The translations under genes were made by a program, and so were the position numbers. This document shows, one piece after another, positions 3,285-50,405 of a stretch of DNA of 64,000 bases. Origin of the DNA: Bacteroidetes bacterium endosymbiont of Geopemphigus sp. (lineage in GTDB: Bacteria > Bacteroidota > Bacteroidia > Flavobacteriales > Blattabacteriaceae); the NCBI RefSeq assembly GCF_002904345.1, contig NZ_PEIH01000005.1, positions 426,449 through 490,448 of the forward strand, given 5' to 3'. The notes under the pieces were generated by a model. That model was not told the DNA's origin. It did no database searches and worked only from the letters and a program-made list of their open reading frames with translations. Within the stretch, counting starts at the first letter, position 1. Each line of letters opens with the position of its first letter.

Positions 3285-4012
3285 TCTAAAAGGATTGGTT
3301 TGCATGCGTATTTTAAACAGTACGATCCCGTTCATATTTGTTGTGCAAATATAGTACTCACCAAGAGCGATTTATATTCGTAGCAAGCAAAAGTCTTTTC
3401 TCGTACATCTTAGGTTTTGTAAAGGCAAGGCTCTGGATGTTTTTTGTAAAGACAGAACTTTATTGTCAAGACCAAGGATTGAAATGTAATAAAATGGCGT
3501 ATTAGAAATTCAGAACTGGCAAGGAGTAAAGAATTTCACCATCAGAGTAACAAGGAAAGATTGAGGACTTATAGTACATATTTGAAGATGCCTTAATGAA
3601 CTGCAAAAAAAGGAGTAAATTGGGAGAGAGTGTTTGAGCTTACTAATCCGAAAAGATCATCTCAAAGCTTCTGAATATTTTGCCACTAAGCTCTACAGTA
3701 AAGCTGTCCAAGATATCATCATAGCGTTATCACAAGAAATTAAAACAGAAAAACAATCCTTAAAATGTATCAAGCGTCCCCCGAGAGAGCATAATGATTT
3801 TAGACCTCACAAGGCGCTCTTGAGGAACACAAACGATCATCTAAAGCTCAAAACTTTCCTGAGAACTTAAGATTTAAAAAACCACATTTGTCCTTGCTCA
3901 TCTCTAATTGATCTAAACTTAGCTCGCCCGGTATAAAAAAACATGAGTGTATATTAATTAATAATATAAAGTATTATGTTTATAATTGTAATTTAGAAAA
4001 TTAATAGAAATA
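3285..4012 (+). other. Gene-poor stretch, decayed coding remnant ending in a repeat shared with 47897-48085
   Basis: No intact gene is recognised. A 78-codon open frame at 3634-3870 (LLIRKDHLKASEYFATKLYS) has no family I recognise and looks like a gene fragment. From about 3810 to 4012 the DNA aligns base by base with 47897-48085. Shared pieces include AAGGCGCTCTTG, ACCACATTTGTCCTTG, TGATCTAAA and TGTATATTAA. This is therefore the upstream part of the duplicated C1q-like cassette. Confidence 0.55.
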
Positions 4013-4602
4013 ATGAAACATATTTTAATTTCTTTTTTTTGTAATCACATTTTCCTTGCAAGCGAAGATAGGTATAGGCATCAAAACCCCCGAGAGCCAA
4101 ATCGATATCAAGGGAGATGTTAAAATAGGAAATGAGGGAAAAACCGACGCGAAAGGAAAAAAATGGATGATTCGATGGAGCGATGCCAAAGTTTGCTTTG
4201 AGAGACGTGACGGTGCACAAATGAATGTCAAAGAAAACACAAAAACCGATATTTACGACCGCTCAAAGCAATAGATCAGGACAGCCCAAATTAGGCTTAT
4301 CGCGTCAGATTAGTTAACCATCATCCTGCACAAGGGGCTTTTGACAGAACCACTCGGGGGAATTCGCTACCTGGATCAACATAAGTAATTGGAAGGCAAG
4401 TTTAATGCAGTTGCAACTTTTATATAGAGGGGCTAAAATTGACGTAGGAGTTACTTATGTCGAGAGTAATGACGATAAGATCGTTTATTTGAAAAAAGAC
4501 GATAAGCTTCACGTTCGTTTCCATACCTATGGAACAACTAATATGAATACTAATACTATATTAGAAAAAAACGAGAGTTACATAAGGTTCTGGAAGCTTT
4601 AA
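4013..4602 (+). pseudogene. Secreted protein with GIGxxxPESxxDI motif and C1q-like C-terminal domain, copy A (frameshifted)
   Basis: The ATG at 4013 starts a signal peptide, MKHILISFFF, that breaks at a run of T residues near 4031-4038. In the next frame it continues VITFSLQA|KIGIGIKTPESQIDI, then GDVKIGN. This motif is common in Bacteroidota surface proteins and in tail-fibre-like proteins. After more breaks near 4274-4400, the end at 4405-4602 reads YLKKDDKLHVRFHTYGTTNM and ESYIRFWKL. That pattern (hydrophobic strand, KKGDKLxV, final beta strand) resembles the C1q/TNF-like jelly roll. The same segments recur in the same order in copy B (48086-48835). The domain assignment is by eye. Secretion is inferred from the rebuilt signal peptide. 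Confidence 0.6.
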
Positions 4603-4623
4603 ATGGGTGTCAGCTTATTTTTT

Positions 4624-4651
4624 ACCCTTTCTTTTTAAGAAAGGGTTTTTT
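4624..4651 (+). terminator. Intrinsic terminator after C1q-like copy A
   Basis: The 10-base arms ACCCTTTCTT (4624-4633) and AAGAAAGGGT (4637-4646) enclose a 3-base loop and are followed by a T run. It lies 21 bases after the copy A stop codon. The same hairpin with small changes occurs at 49806-49826 after copy B. Confidence 0.8.
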
Positions 4652-5110
4652 ATTTGCAAAGGCCCTACAAATCAAAGCCTCTAGAATTCCTCTAAAAGGG
4701 TAAAAACCTCTTGAGATTCCACTCTACGAACACCACATTTGCCAATGTAAGAACATGCACTCATTGCGGAATATACGGCGCTTTAACGAGCTTATCCTTA
4801 TAGATCAACTTATCTTGCGTCACCACCTTTTCAACAACCTTATCCTTACTTGTGCTAAGCTTTAATAGTCTTTCCCTGTACATTCAAGCTTTGATCCTGG
4901 TTTTCTCGCTTATAAGCTCATAACGTTTAGGAGGCAAGTGGTGTATATCTAAAATTCTCTAAAGGAAGCTCCATAAAGCTCATCAGATCCCGGTGACGGG
5001 TCTATCCTTCACACGCGATCTATCGCTCTGATTTAGATCTATATTTTCCTTCACCGTGAGCCTTTTTGAGGAGGAGTAGCATAGCAAAAGGAAATAAAGT
5101 ATAAGCCTCT
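4652..5110 (-). pseudogene. Decayed minus-strand gene downstream of the lysozyme, shared with copy B
   Basis: No frame is open for long. The minus strand holds pieces such as FAMLLLLKKAHGEGKYRSK and VVTQDKLIYKDKLVKAPYI. The second is an alternating charged/hydrophobic pattern that could belong to a small Rz/spanin-like or coiled protein, but this is only a guess. Bases 4765-4860 align with 49955-50035 (for example ACGGCGCTTTAAC and TTATAGAT with short gaps). A gene of this kind therefore followed the lysozyme in both cassettes and is dead in both. Confidence 0.4.
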
Positions 5111-5119
5111 CATGCTTGT

Positions 5120-5545
5120 TTAGCTTACAAAGAGCTTCCTTTCCGCCTCGCGTCTTTTAGTTAAGTCTTCCGAGATCTCTCCCTTTACTTTGTTCCATTG
5201 TAAAAACTCCTTAGACGCCCTACGGTAGTTTCTTACGTTGAGTTTTTTAAGCAATGTGGAATCTTTGAAGTTATTCACACCCAGGTTAAAGATAAAGCTC
5301 GAAAGCGCGTCGTATTGATTTTGAGACAGCGGAACCTTTATATAGGCCTCTATCGCCGCTTGAGCGTCCTTTAGATCTTGCTTTAAGAGCAAAACAGCTC
5401 CTTCCATAGTGATATGATCTCCGGGCTTTACTCCTTTAGTGTGACCGTAGCCTATGGTCCATACGCCAGCTTGACATTTATAGGCTTTTGCCCTAAAGTC
5501 TTCAAATCCGCATATAAGATCTATGCCTTTATCTGATATTTTCAT
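5120..5545 (-). CDS. Phage-type lysozyme, glycoside hydrolase family 24
   Basis: The protein cleaves peptidoglycan between N-acetylmuramic acid and N-acetylglucosamine. Starting at the ATG at 5545 it has 141 residues, the usual length for phage endolysins, and shows the GH24 core: Glu15 in CGFEDF, then AYKCQAGVWTIGYGHT with Thr30. The T4 lysozyme Asp20 position is Cys24 here. T4 lysozyme with Cys at that site is known to stay active, so loss of function cannot be assumed. The C-terminus NQYDALSSFIFNLG and TKRREAERKLF is complete. I chose the inner ATG because it overlaps the stop of a small upstream frame as ATGA; an upstream ATG at 5575 would add ten residues. There is no signal peptide, as in holin-dependent endolysins. 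The gene converges on C1q-like copy A. Confidence 0.85.
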   Translation of the reverse strand: MKISDKGIDLICGFEDFRAKAYKCQAGVWTIGYGHTKGVKPGDHITMEGAVLLLKQDLKDAQAAIEAYIKVPLSQNQYDALSSFIFNLGVNNFKDSTLLKKLNVRNYRRASKEFLQWNKVKGEISEDLTKRREAERKLFVS

Positions 5546-5646
5546 TCTTTTATGTTTGCCGTGTTTATAGAACAAGAGCCCTGTTCTTTTGTCTTTTCTT
5601 GATCGCTTTCAATACCCTTTTCACTCAAAAGCCTCATCTTATTCAT
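5542..5646 (-). CDS. Small ORF overlapping the lysozyme start (34 aa, unknown)
   Basis: The frame MNKMRLLSEKGIESDQEKTK ends ...INTANIKE with a TGA sharing bases with the lysozyme ATG (ATGA at 5545-5542). I recognise no family. It has no signal peptide or membrane segment. The overlap suggests translational coupling to the lysozyme, but it could equally be the tail of a decayed gene. Confidence 0.35.
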   Translation of the reverse strand: MNKMRLLSEKGIESDQEKTKEQGSCSINTANIKE

Positions 5647-6195
5647 AAGTCATCGGGACACCCAGAGAGGCCACCCCCGCTAAGTTCTCCATCGCCGAAA
5701 AGGACTCTCTGAGCAACTATGACCATGGTGAGGTAGCGCGAGGGCAGATCGAGCTCAAAAGGATGATCTCCCCCAAGACGATAATTTTTCAAAACATGGT
5801 AGAGCGCGAGCATAAAGCTATACATAACGGATTTATGGATCATCGAGTCAAAAGATGCTCTGGTCTTTCAGTGGAATTTCATCTCTACCTTAGACATTTC
5901 AGCCTCAAATTAGCGACATCCTCTTTTAACTCGCCTCTGACTTGAGATATTTGTATTTCAAGTTGAGCTACCTTAACCTCTACCTTAGAGACATCTTCCT
6001 TAGTGGCAAGATTATTGTACTTTATCTTCTACCTTGTCTTCTATCTGAGCGGGTGTAACTTATTCAAGGTAGTGCTCTTGAGAGTATCCGCTCCATTCCC
6101 ATCTATCTTTTTGGCGGGGGATCTGTGCGCATCGGTAACACATAAGTCCTTCTAGTTTTATTGACAGTCATAGTTTCCATGAAATTAAAAAAAGA
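5647..6195 (-). pseudogene. DUF1640-like coiled-coil protein remnant
   Basis: The minus strand holds, broken over several frames, ATKEDVSKVEVKVAQLEIQI, SQVRGELKEDVANLR and MIHKSVMYSFMLALYHVLK. TKEDxxKVE-type heptads followed by a membrane-like C-terminal segment are typical of DUF1640-like coiled-coil proteins, which are frequent in amoeba and arthropod symbionts. Stops and frame changes interrupt it at several points, for example a TGA just before KTRASFDSMI. The segment beyond about 5760 reads a different sequence (LPSRYLTMVIVAQRVLFG) whose origin is unclear. Confidence 0.5.
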
Positions 6196-6659: not shown

Positions 6660-6905
6660 AGTTTCCTTTGTTCATTTACTTCTATCTTAACATGAGGATG
6701 TTGATAAACTCTCTGTGGCCGCTCTTGGTAGCTAAACCAAGTGGCGTTTTCCGTACTTATCTTCAGCCTTTACATTGGCGCCATAATCTAATAAGAATTT
6801 CACAGTTTCTGCTTTTCCCTCTTTGGCAACCCAATGTAGCGGTGTTTTGTCAAACAGACCTTTAACGTTCATATCCGCGCCTCCTTTGATAAGAAACTCA
6901 ACAAT
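6660..6905 (-). pseudogene. Ankyrin-repeat protein remnant
   Basis: The minus strand reads IVEFLIKGGADMNVKGLFDK, TPLHWVAKEGKAETVKFLLD and YGANVKAEDKYGK. After a one-base shift it continues GLATKSGHREFINILML. The TPLHxA...FLLxxGAxxxAxD pattern defines ankyrin repeats, so about two and a half repeats survive. Ankyrin proteins often bind host proteins in intracellular bacteria. No start codon or N-terminal domain is left. Confidence 0.75.
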
Positions 6906-7396: not shown

Positions 7397-8422
7397 TCAA
7401 GGCAAACCATGTTGCTTGATAAAACGAAGATAGCGCTGACGGAACTTCTCGTGTGTAAACGCATCTGTGGAAAATTCATGGTATCCTTTTCTGTCAACAC
7501 TTGCCACCATAAAGTAATAAGAATGTGATTCAGGCTGAAGTACTGCGTCAATAGCGGTGGTTTGCGGAAAGCAAATAGGCCCGGGAGGAAGTCCGTAATA
7601 CATATAAGTGTTATAAGGCGAATTTATAGAAAGATCTTTGTAAAACAATCTTGAAATATGCACTCCGGATACCATATGAGACTTCATAGCATAGACCACC
7701 GTAGGATCGGCCTGTAATTTTTGCCGATCCCTTAAGCGGTTCAAATAAAGACCGGCAATCCTTGGCATTTCATCACTTTTAGAAGTTTCTTTCTGAACAA
7801 TAGAAGCCAAAGTGATTACTTGCAAAGGCGTTAAACCGAGGCGATAAGTCTTTTCCCGACGTTTTTCATTCCAAAACCTTTGATATTCCTTAAGCATGCG
7901 CTCTAGAAAAGCTTTTGGAGACGTATTCCAATACAACTCATAAGTATTGGCGATGAATAATCCACGTACGCTCTCTTTACTAAGTTGATGGTTATGAAGA
8001 AAATGCCAATCCAGAATCGCTTGCATAAAATCTTCAGACTTAGGTTCAAGAAAACGAGCTAGTTGATCGACAAGCTCTATAAGGGTTTCTTGTTTTGCAA
8101 AATTTAGTTTCACTAAAAGTTGCTGACCGGAACGCAACTTATTTACCAGCTCCCAATTGCTCTCACCCTGAGTGAGCTTATATTTTCCAGGTTTTATTTT
8201 CCCAGAATAAGATTTTTGACGGGCTACCCAATCAAAAGCTTCTGAATCTTTTATGAGAGGTGCGATGCTGCTTTTCACCTGATCATAGGTAAAACCAGTA
8301 GGGATAAAAAATTCTGTAGATTCAAGGACGCTTTGATCGAAAAAATACTTGTAATATTTATAGAAGAAAAAAATCGAAGCACCTAAAAAAAATATTGTAA
8401 TCCATCGCAGAGTGCTCCTCAT
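7397..8422 (-). CDS. mltG: Endolytic transglycosylase MltG (YceG-like)
   Basis: MltG cuts nascent glycan strands at the inner membrane and so sets their length. The 341-residue protein has one N-terminal membrane anchor (WITIFFLGASIFFFYKYY), a LysM-like region and the YceG catalytic domain. The signature is LASIVQKETSKSDEMPRIAG, followed by LYLNRLRD and LQADPTVVYAMK. The Gln in VQKET replaces the Glu seen in enterobacterial VEKET; the next Glu is kept, as in other Bacteroidota copies. It starts 3 bases after the dapF stop and is almost certainly co-transcribed with it. Confidence 0.94.
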   Translation of the reverse strand: MRSTLRWITIFFLGASIFFFYKYYKYFFDQSVLESTEFFIPTGFTYDQVKSSIAPLIKDSEAFDWVARQKSYSGKIKPGKYKLTQGESNWELVNKLRSGQQLLVKLNFAKQETLIELVDQLARFLEPKSEDFMQAILDWHFLHNHQLSKESVRGLFIANTYELYWNTSPKAFLERMLKEYQRFWNEKRREKTYRLGLTPLQVITLASIVQKETSKSDEMPRIAGLYLNRLRDRQKLQADPTVVYAMKSHMVSGVHISRLFYKDLSINSPYNTYMYYGLPPGPICFPQTTAIDAVLQPESHSYYFMVASVDRKGYHEFSTDAFTHEKFRQRYLRFIKQHGLP

Positions 8423-47351: not shown

Positions 47352-48085
47352 CATAATTTATGACAATTGTTTTATTAAGTTGCGTTCTCTTTTAAAGATC
47401 AGATTTGTTCTGATTATAAAAAAGATATTTTCTCTGCTCTAACCAGCGTAGCCAATTACGATGTCCTCTCTACTTTCGTTAAATTATCTTACAATGAAGG
47501 TTATAATACTATTCGAATGGTCGGCGATCAACTGATTTTTGGTCTGCTTATAATTTTTATTTGCTCGAAAAACCTTCCTAAAACCTCTTAGAAAACAGAA
47601 GAAATACAATAATTATAATAAATTCATTTACATCATATTAAAAATTAAAATCTATAGATGTAGTCTACAAATTGCCTGCAATTGCTATTTCCTTTTCCTT
47701 TTTTTTACCTCTTCAAACAAGTTAAGTATATATTTTAGATATAAACCTTTTTCTGAAGTTTCAGTATGCGCCAATTATGAGACTCAAGATTGGTTTGCGC
47801 GTCATATTTTGTGTTTTCACAATCCAAAAATGACTTTATGCCCCAGTTAGGTCCAACAAAACGCTCTATTGAGGACACATTCTTTATTTTTTCTCTCATA
47901 AGGCGCTCTTGGGGCATAAAGAGGATACAGAAGTCACCTCTAAAAACTCTTGAAATCTCCCGAAGAGCAAACACCACATTTGTCCTTGTCCATATCTGAT
48001 TGATCTAAAACTTCGATATAAAGTATAAAAATATGAATGTATATTAAATAATAATATATGTATGTTACATATTATAAATAATAAT
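47352..48085 (+). other. Decayed stretch; 47897-48085 is the copy B version of the cassette leader
   Basis: A 65-codon plus-strand frame near 47397-47590 reads DIFSALTSVANYDVLSTFVK, then LSYNEGYNTIRMVGDQLIFG. It looks like a fragment of a real protein, but I recognise no family. From 47897 onward the DNA aligns with 3810-4012: AAGGCGCTCTTG, AACACCACATTTGTCCTTG, TGATTGATCTAAA and GAATGTATATTAA. This marks the left part of the duplicated accessory cassette. Confidence 0.5.
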
Positions 48086-48835
48086 ATGAAACTAAAAAAT
48101 TTTTTAGATATTCCCATCGCTTCGGAATCCTTGCAGGCTGAGATAGGTGTGGGAAAAAAACCCGAGAGTAAGCTCGATGTTAGCGAACATATTAAAATAG
48201 GCAATAGAAGGAAAATACTAACGCGCAAAGAAAAGAAGCGATGATACGATGAAATAAAGAAAAATCTGCTTGGAGAGACATGATAGAAGGAGCTGGACAT
48301 GTTTGGAAGAAAGGTTTGAATACGGTTTTTTGATCCTTTATTGGAATTATCAGATCAAGGAATGCCATGTCATAATAAAGATGAAGAGGGCTGGAAAGAT
48401 AAATACAGTAAAATCCAGTATCCAAAGCAACATTCTTAAATTAGGTGTAGCCTCAGACTCCAATAAAGGTGTTTATAGCGATAGTACTTTTACCACTCCT
48501 GAAGAGGGTTCTTATAAAATTGAATATATTATCAGATTAGGTAATCATCCTCCCGGAAGCGCTTTTGACGGAACTAGAGGAGTATTTGGCACCTGAATCA
48601 GCGTAAATAACCGTTTCACAAGTATATTATAATAATTACAATGTATTAAGAGGATTCAAATTATCCTCTGGTAGTTCAAAAACAGATGCTCACATTAGTC
48701 AAATTATATATTTAAAAAAAAGGAAATAAACTCAATGTTCGTTTTAAAGCATGAGGAATAGCCGATATGAACACCAATTTGAGAAATGTTTTTATCGATA
48801 ACAGTCAAAGCTACATTAAGATTTGGAAATCTTAA
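48086..48835 (+). pseudogene. Secreted GIG-motif / C1q-like protein, copy B (frameshifted)
   Basis: The start MKLKNFLDIPIASESLQA is followed by EIGVGKKPESKLDV and HIKIGN, colinear with copy A (LQA|KIGIGIKTPESQIDI). After breaks near 48240 a longer open part (48421-48598) reads SNKGVYSDSTFTTPEEGSYK, then RLGNHPPGSAFDGTRGVF. The TFTxPxxGxYxxxY pattern is the best sign of a C1q/TNF-like jelly roll. The end IYLKKRK, MNTNLRNVF and QSYIKIWKS matches copy A strand for strand. An in-frame TGA and at least three frame changes make it dead. Between its stop and the shared terminator lies an IS481-type remnant that copy A lacks. Confidence 0.6.
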
Positions 48836-48939
48836 ATAATGTTATAATGTTCGTATCAGAATCTATATTTACTTAGAATAAAGATAAATATTTGACCTAT
48901 TTATTGATAGGAAATCTTATTAGGAAGGCCCTTTGGAAG

Positions 48940-49780
48940 AAGTTTTCTAAGCACCTCGTAAGGAATCCTTTTCCCTTAAATCCCCGTTAGGTCGCTGAGA
49001 ATTGTAAAATATTTCCCATTCCCTAAATTTCTCAATATCTATATCATCGGTATATTCGAGAATATAGCAAAATTCTTACTGGTCGATTAAATGCGAACGC
49101 TCGACTTTTCCATTGAGATGAGAAATAACTTTATTGATATAAATATGCCTTATACCGAGATCTTCACAACGCCAATAAAACTGAGCTTGAAATTCATGTT
49201 CGTTATCAGTCTGCACCGTATGTATCCTGAAAGAAAATCTCTCGATAACATAGTCGAGAAAATCTATGGCACATTTCTGGTTATATTTTGAATAAATTTT
49301 AAGAGCCAGAGCCTCTGCTGGTATCATCTATTCCCGTGTACTGATAATGTTTAAGCGCTTTACCTTCTTTATCTGTGAAAGAGAAAAATTTAACATCAAT
49401 CTGAATTGCGATGTCTGGGCACCTGCTTTTCGTATCATTTAAATGACTTAATGGATGTTTTGCGTTGGTTTTGAGGTAGTCGGTTCAGATCATTGCATTT
49501 CAATACATACCAAAACCCTCCGTATCTCATGGTATTTAAAATACCATGAGATACGGAGATTCCTTAGATGATAGTTTTTACATAAAAATAATCTTTTCTT
49601 CAATATCAGGCGCTATTCTGAGCTTTATATTTTCAGGACAGGGTTTGTGATCAAAGCGGTTTCTCCTTCTTCTTCATAAGCTCTCTTCCAATTGTAATAT
49701 CTATCCCTAGATATACCAAAGTATCTACAGGTTTAGAATTTTGATTGACAAGTTACAAGATGTAAACCAAAGTCCTGATT
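48940..49780 (-). mobile_element. IS481-family transposase remnant
   Basis: From the right end the minus strand reads CRYFGISRDRYYNWKRAYEE, then RISWYFKYHEIRR, YVLKCNDLNRLPQNQR, QYTGIDDT, and the open part at 49076-49327: IYSKYNQKCAIDFLDYVIER, FSFRIHTVQTDNEHEFQAQF and DLGIRHIYINKV. These are the helix-turn-helix and DDE integrase core of IS481/IS3-like transposases; GIDD and TVQTDN hold the first two catalytic Asp residues. At least five frame changes are present. No clear terminal inverted repeats or target duplication could be recognised by eye. Confidence 0.85.
49518..49558. repeat. Near-perfect palindrome (20-base arms) inside the transposase remnant
   Basis: Bases 49518-49537 are perfectly complementary to 49539-49558 with a single base between. 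The palindrome coincides exactly with the transposase segment read as RISWYFKYHEIRR on the minus strand, so it is not an inserted element. See findings. Confidence 0.9.
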
Positions 49781-49805
49781 TTCATAGTTAATTCTTTGTT
49801 ATTTG

Positions 49806-49832
49806 TCCTTTCTTAAAAAGAAAGGATTTTTT
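49806..49832 (+). terminator. Intrinsic terminator, copy B of the cassette
   Basis: TCCTTTCTT (49806-49814) and AAGAAAGGA (49818-49826) form a 9-base stem followed by TTTTTT. It is homologous to the hairpin at 4624-4646 but is now separated from the copy B reading frame by the IS481 remnant. Confidence 0.75.
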
Positions 49833-50405
49833 ATTGATAAAGCTCTTACAAATCAATACCCCTTCAAGTCCTTTTAAAAGCTCAAAACCCCGATTTAAGC
49901 TTCCGCCTCCTCTAGAAACAAACGGACAAAAACATATACGTTTGTGATATACGGCGCTTTAACAAGCTTGTACTTATAGATAAGCTTATCTTTTGCCATT
50001 CACCTTTTCAATGTACCTTATCCTTACACGCTCGCTTATTATCGCTTGCCGTAAGCTTTAAGATCTTTCCCTTTATCTCGGCGCTGATCTTGCTCGATTG
50101 AAAGTTTATATAAAGTTTGGGAGCTATGTGTTAACCTGAAGTCTCCGGGGCGGCAGCTCGAGAGAGAGCTTACAAAAGCTAAGCTTACGTTCTCTCGTGG
50201 TAAGCGGTATCGCTCTGCTTTACCACGAGTCTTTCCTTAAATGTGAGCCTTTTTAAAATCAAGCGGCTTATAAGGAAAAAGAAAGGAAAAAGATATGTAA
50301 TAAGCCTTTCACGCTTCGTATAGCTTATATAAAAGCTTTCTATTCCGCCTCACGCCTTTTGCTTAATCCCTCTCTGAAGGCGCTTTGCTTTGCTCAAGAA
50401 TAACT
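49833..50405 (-). pseudogene. Copy B of the lysozyme end and its downstream gene, decayed
   Basis: The minus strand near 50335-50385 reads GLSKRREAE-KAFI, matching the lysozyme C-terminus DLTKRREAERKLFVS at 5120-5165. Beyond it, TACGGCGCTTTAAC, CTTATAGATAAGCTTATCTT and CTTATCCTTAC at 49955-50035 match 4785-4855. The catalytic half of the lysozyme is gone. Order and strand are the same as in copy A. Confidence 0.65.

Follow-up and report, generated by a model that had tools for sequence, protein, structure and literature searches.

The locus examined here raises the question of whether a gene for a secreted protein and a gene for a phage-type lysozyme, which converge on a terminator and recur in the same arrangement elsewhere in the same stretch of DNA, form a unit that was amplified or mobilized as such. 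The window, which is the whole stretch of 64,000 nucleotides that was analysed, corresponds to positions 426449-490448 of contig C4 in a genome of 1,317,719 bases in 5 contigs. Other genomes of the same family fall at 200-300 kb and at 600 kb, as is typical of insect symbionts of the Sulcia and Blattabacterium types. From the genome sizes within the family, together with the decay described below, we infer that the window is part of a decaying, symbiont-like Flavobacteriales genome.

Comparison of the two blocks concerned, A (3810-5646) and B (47897-50405), revealed four same-strand DNA segments that align in collinear order. These cover the leader and first part of the secreted gene (A 3877-4210 against B 47969-48283; 68% identity, 96.9 bits), the middle of that gene (A 4305-4388 against B 48532-48610; 70%, 35.6 bits), the terminator with a minus-strand remnant (A 4615-4849 against B 49796-50027; 70%, 95.1 bits) and the last lysozyme codons (A 5101-5164 against B 50300-50366; 81%, 52.7 bits). 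Since the top score among 200 dinucleotide shuffles was 30.1 bits, all four segments lie above chance level, and the alignment is not limited to short chance matches. A and B, first annotated as a duplication with the same order and strands, are indeed copies of a single DNA segment, and old ones. The intergenic leader of A (3810-4013, plus strand) is common to B and other copies, and that of B (47897-48061, plus strand) also aligns with loci at 35.2 kb of contig C1 and 328 kb of C4. The intrinsic terminators reported in both blocks were recovered as well: that of gene A (4624-4652, plus strand) consists of a 10-bp stem and a T-run, its aligned counterpart in B lies at 49805-49832 (plus strand), and each hairpin folds better than its shuffles (z -4.6 in A and -2.9 in B). 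No Rfam families were detected at the two blocks, and the leader repeat element CGAACACCACATTTGTC, considered as a dispersed signal, returned only 2 near-exact sites.

Block B additionally contains a remnant of an IS-type DDE integrase (49079-49327, minus strand; motifs TDNEHEF and NGKVERSH) between gene B and its terminator. The DNA beside it (49346-49738) is repeated at 1,037 kb of C4 with 84% identity. Within this IS-associated DNA, positions 49518-49558 form a 41-base inverted repeat of itself (97.6% identity) with a TATCTCATGGTATTTAAAATACCATGAGATA core. The remnant was found only in B, and no integrase or transposase was seen in common among the secreted-gene copies. What had been taken for one decayed minus-strand gene in B can be accepted only for 49946-50316 (minus strand), which is the counterpart of A 4764-5117; the remainder is in part the integrase insertion.

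The minus-strand remnant of A (4764-5117) lies 3' of the lysozyme and ends with 'KDKVVEKVVTQDKLIYKDKLVKAPYI' at 4770-4847, of which B has a near copy at 49946-49999; traces also occur at two further loci, near 628 and 923 kb of C4. Its place directly after the endolysin and a possible lipobox-like start hint that it may be a spanin-like lysis gene, and small lipoprotein-like genes follow the endolysins at Bacteroidota loci L107 and L170. On the 5' side of the lysozyme, frame reading indicated a remnant of a coiled-coil gene (5897-6001, minus strand), the surrounding DNA of which is repeated at C4:404-896 with 67% identity. Examined as possible parts of a lysis cassette, neither the small gene (in A or B) nor the coiled-coil remnant returned a family match. 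Near the secreted-gene copy at 923 kb, L033 encodes an intact small coiled-coil protein (7542-7790, minus strand) with a C-terminal membrane-helix-like end, which matches phrog_6701, a phage family of unknown function (E 6e-5). Upstream of the lysozyme the window holds an ankyrin-repeat remnant (6747-6887, minus strand), and related ankyrin-like sequence with matching DNA is found near 400.8 kb of C4.

The lysozyme of block A (5120-5545, minus strand) is an intact GH24 protein, as had been annotated, of 141 amino acids when read from the ATG at 5545, with the frame open from a TTG at 5575. It matches PF00959 with an E value of 2.7e-45 (154.2 bits against a cut-off of 22.3; profile positions 3-125 of 125) and the endolysin family phrog_7 with 2.7e-56. 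In T4-like GH24 enzymes the catalytic Glu is followed by Asp or Cys at +9 and by Thr at +15, and Cys at the middle position is known from other phage lysozymes; the 151-residue frame has E25, C34 and T40, exactly this spacing. At the local stop density the chance of 151 open codons is about 4e-5 per starting position, and an open frame amid broken neighbours suggests that it is under selection or that its neighbours were lost recently. This is the only intact copy in the genome: in B about the last 15-28 codons remain (50328-50405, minus strand; 'EGLSKRREAE'), recognized by the 52.7-bit DNA match to the end of the A gene. Judging by its family the A endolysin, if expressed, would cut peptidoglycan. 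No signal peptide was found in it, so a holin or cell lysis would be needed for it to reach that substrate.

As to where this gene came from, it may have been acquired separately, from a phage infecting a gammaproteobacterium that lives in the same insect, and kept for wall turnover or lysis without any relation to the secreted gene. We regard this as possible but not as likely; it addresses only where the lysozyme came from and is compatible with the explanation that we prefer below. The closest matches of the A protein are endolysins of gammaproteobacterial phages, several from insect-associated hosts, with Erwinia tracheiphila phage LS-2018a (55.6%), APSE (∼51%) and Sodalis phage phiSG1 (49%) at the top. 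A search of 60 genomes of the same family detected no GH24 protein, and the wall genes yceG/mltG and dapF are located nearby, which also fits such an acquisition. However, the lysozyme tree was not strong enough to assign the gene a position, and the presence of a lysozyme tail in B implies that the lysozyme predates the duplication.

The secreted gene is broken in A as well as in B: six-frame reading showed that 4014-4602 (plus strand) runs through three different frames, with a neck at 4056-4274 and a C1q-like end at 4271-4602. Gene B (48062-48835, plus strand) retains a signal peptide, a GVGxxPESKLDV neck and a C1q-like end, again in broken frames. Neither the decayed pieces nor a composite of them matched C1q (PF00386) in Pfam or anything credible in PDB. 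Of 396 genomes of the order that were searched, 27 besides this one have intact homologs, in open frames mostly of 200-290 residues in which a signal peptide is followed by a 'GIGTxxPxSxLDVxG' neck and, as the tip, a C1q/TNF-like domain. The best of them, L086 (281 amino acids), carries 'NAYDPVKGEFIVPQDGLYHF' and 'TIWLKAGQKIKLIFVARGTANMADDNN' in addition to the signal peptide and neck motif, and its end matches too. By hhalign the decayed copies match nine intact homologs with a probability of 98.4% (E 6e-15), and seven of these nine match PF00386 (best E 7e-9). The neck and C1q-like end of the window copies are thus homologous to intact members of a Flavobacteriales secreted family, and since the decayed copies match C1q-bearing homologs by profile, the description of the product as a secreted C1q-like protein was right. 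Against PDB the profile of the intact homologs found cerebellin-1, C1q chains and the Bdellovibrio MAT fibre Bd2133 (E 1e-8 for Bd2133). The C1q/TNF-tipped kind of secreted protein is, judged from these sequences, common in Flavobacteriales, with an end that is sometimes Fib_succ_major-like. By analogy with the MAT fibres, the protein would have formed surface trimers with ligand-binding tips.

Use of the profile of decayed copies as a query against their own genome returned 24 stretches, 22 of them with E values below 0.01, which group into at least 11 loci. Three of these are on C1, at 21.6, 35.4 and 156 kb, and eight on C4, at 66, 153, 328, 430 (A), 474 (B), 599, 768 and 923 kb. The weakest, at 153 kb of C4, combines a short match (E 0.001) with 126 bases of DNA that align to the B leader. 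Most of the 24 stretches contain internal stops, and no complete copy of the gene was seen at the 11 loci. Leader and terminator DNA are common to several loci at about 66-72% identity; this is about the same as for the coding parts and points to copying of whole segments followed by neutral drift, although old paralogy, and not copying within this lineage, could account for some of the 11. The copies at 21.6 and 156 kb of C1 (L110 and L111) carry a Fib_succ_major-like piece in the same framework (PF09603, E 6e-4 and 0.089), and the end domains of the family seem to have been exchanged. In these two copies the piece replaces or precedes the C1q-like end.

These observations bear on the reading of the blocks as a prophage remnant, in which the secreted protein would be a tail-fibre or receptor-binding protein and would form, with the endolysin and the small gene, one duplicated phage lysis and host-recognition region. 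The endolysin is of phage type and has its closest matches among phage genes, some proteins of the secreted family match phage tail/fibre PHROGs, and one Bacteroidota endolysin locus has a holin-like gene, a lysozyme and a small lipoprotein gene in a row. C1q-domain receptor-binding genes also occur in phages (PMC7468147). Yet the copies begin with Sec signal-peptide-like starts, and the nearest intact homolog is chromosomal: over the 18 kb that were read, its locus shows a run of four secreted genes flanked by ribosomal-protein genes and nusG, and no phage genes. The free-living protein had no homolog in the phage records searched, and none of the viral contigs searched with an intact homolog matched. 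No other phage gene was seen in either block and no sheath gene in the genome, and lysozyme sequence is absent from 9 of the 11 copies. We therefore consider a prophage remnant improbable. The phage spike that had been proposed as a source survives as a possible distant ancestor, given that the GIGT neck and C1q tip resemble phage tail-fibre families, but the nearest intact relatives found are chromosomal Flavobacteriales secreted proteins. A contractile injection system was considered and rejected, as no contractile sheath gene was found in the genome.

Whether the two genes belong together can be judged from their company elsewhere. In this genome lysozyme sequence accompanies the secreted gene at two of the 11 loci, A and B, and is intact at A only. 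Across about 20 loci with intact secreted-gene homologs in free-living Flavobacteriales no credible lysozyme was found, and across about 100 lysozyme loci there was no secreted-gene match, many of these loci having short flanks (∼1.5 kb). One tblastn hit of a lysozyme in L086 (29% over 68 amino acids, E 9e-4, from 83 queries) was taken as chance. In this genome the pair was not seen at loci other than A and B, nor with a mobility gene shared by the copies. As the two genes were not neighbours at the other loci searched, the idea of a module fails by the criterion set for it at first, while the duplication stands: of the amplified or mobile module proposed at first, the amplification holds for the secreted gene, at no fewer than 11 loci instead of two, and the repeated or mobile pair is not supported. 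As a system, the pair of secreted gene and lysozyme is not new; its genes are of known kinds, the endolysin being an ordinary one of GH24 type, and most copies are dead.

The same counts weigh on the view that A and B represent a functional accessory cassette, in which a surface adhesin and a lysozyme acted jointly in interaction with the host or competitors, were amplified under selection and have lately decayed. Amplification to 11 loci, a lysozyme intact where its neighbours have decayed and the sharing of both genes by A and B would suit it. Nevertheless, we find it very unlikely, given that the lysozyme is at only two of the 11 loci and lacks a signal peptide, that the genes are convergent and would be separate transcripts, and that they were not found together elsewhere. 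In a bolder version, a lineage of insect symbionts would have amplified a surface adhesin together with a linked, phage-derived pair of lysis genes and turned this on its host or on competing symbionts, the surviving lysozyme being domesticated and still in use; this, too, is very unlikely.

We conclude that the locus is probably part of a decayed, lineage-specific expansion of a secreted fibre protein, two copies of which lie in a duplicated segment that also holds a phage-type lysis remnant. The secreted gene would have reached at least 11 places as segments complete with leader and terminator were copied, after which the copies would have lost their reading frames, as is seen in A, B and the other copies read. 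One segment presumably carried, on the opposite strand, the lysis remnant, in which a small gene comes after a GH24 endolysin, and copying of this segment would have produced A and B. Afterwards B would have gained the IS and lost its endolysin, and A would have kept an open endolysin frame with its catalytic residues. Secreted gene and endolysin thus appear to meet at the terminator as neighbours in a copied segment and not as functional partners. On this view we see a symbiont-like genome whose secreted fibre-type proteins first expanded and are now being lost, and in which a phage-type endolysin has outlived the genes around it. The surviving lysozyme and the extent of the decayed expansion should be of moderate interest to symbiont specialists, and the profile match connects the short GIGT/C1q proteins of Flavobacteriales with the fibre family of Bdellovibrio.

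Among known systems, the phage GH24 endolysins (APSE P13, phiSG1 gp53 and that of Erwinia phage LS-2018a) share ∼49-56% identity with the A lysozyme over 93% of its length, and both have the GH24 domain and no signal peptide. Unlike them, the A lysozyme is chromosomal and stands among pseudogenes, without an adjacent holin or an identifiable Rz gene. With the GIGT-neck, C1q/TNF-tipped proteins of free-living Flavobacteriales, such as L086, the window copies share the signal peptide and GIGTxxPxSxLDVxG neck as well as the YDPxxGxFTxPxxGxY, LxxGDxI and end motifs. Both are multi-gene families (four genes in a row at L105), but in contrast to the free-living family the window copies are all broken and scattered, and are lysozyme-adjacent at A and B only. 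The Fib_succ_major (FISUMP) secreted proteins are represented by the piece in the copies at 21.6 and 156 kb of C1, which is absent from A and B. The mosaic adhesive trimer (MAT) fibres of Bdellovibrio are described as trimers resembling phage tail fibres, with tips that can be exchanged and that in two cases are TNF/C1q-like (PMC10769870). Compared with Bd2133 and Bd2734 of that set (PMC10769870), the likeness lies in the match of the intact-homolog profile to Bd2133 and in the alternative C1q-like and FISUMP ends; the MATs whose structures have been solved form long fibres, and several of them have a beta-helix shaft, whereas the Flavobacteriales proteins are short (200-290 amino acids) and would be trimers by analogy.
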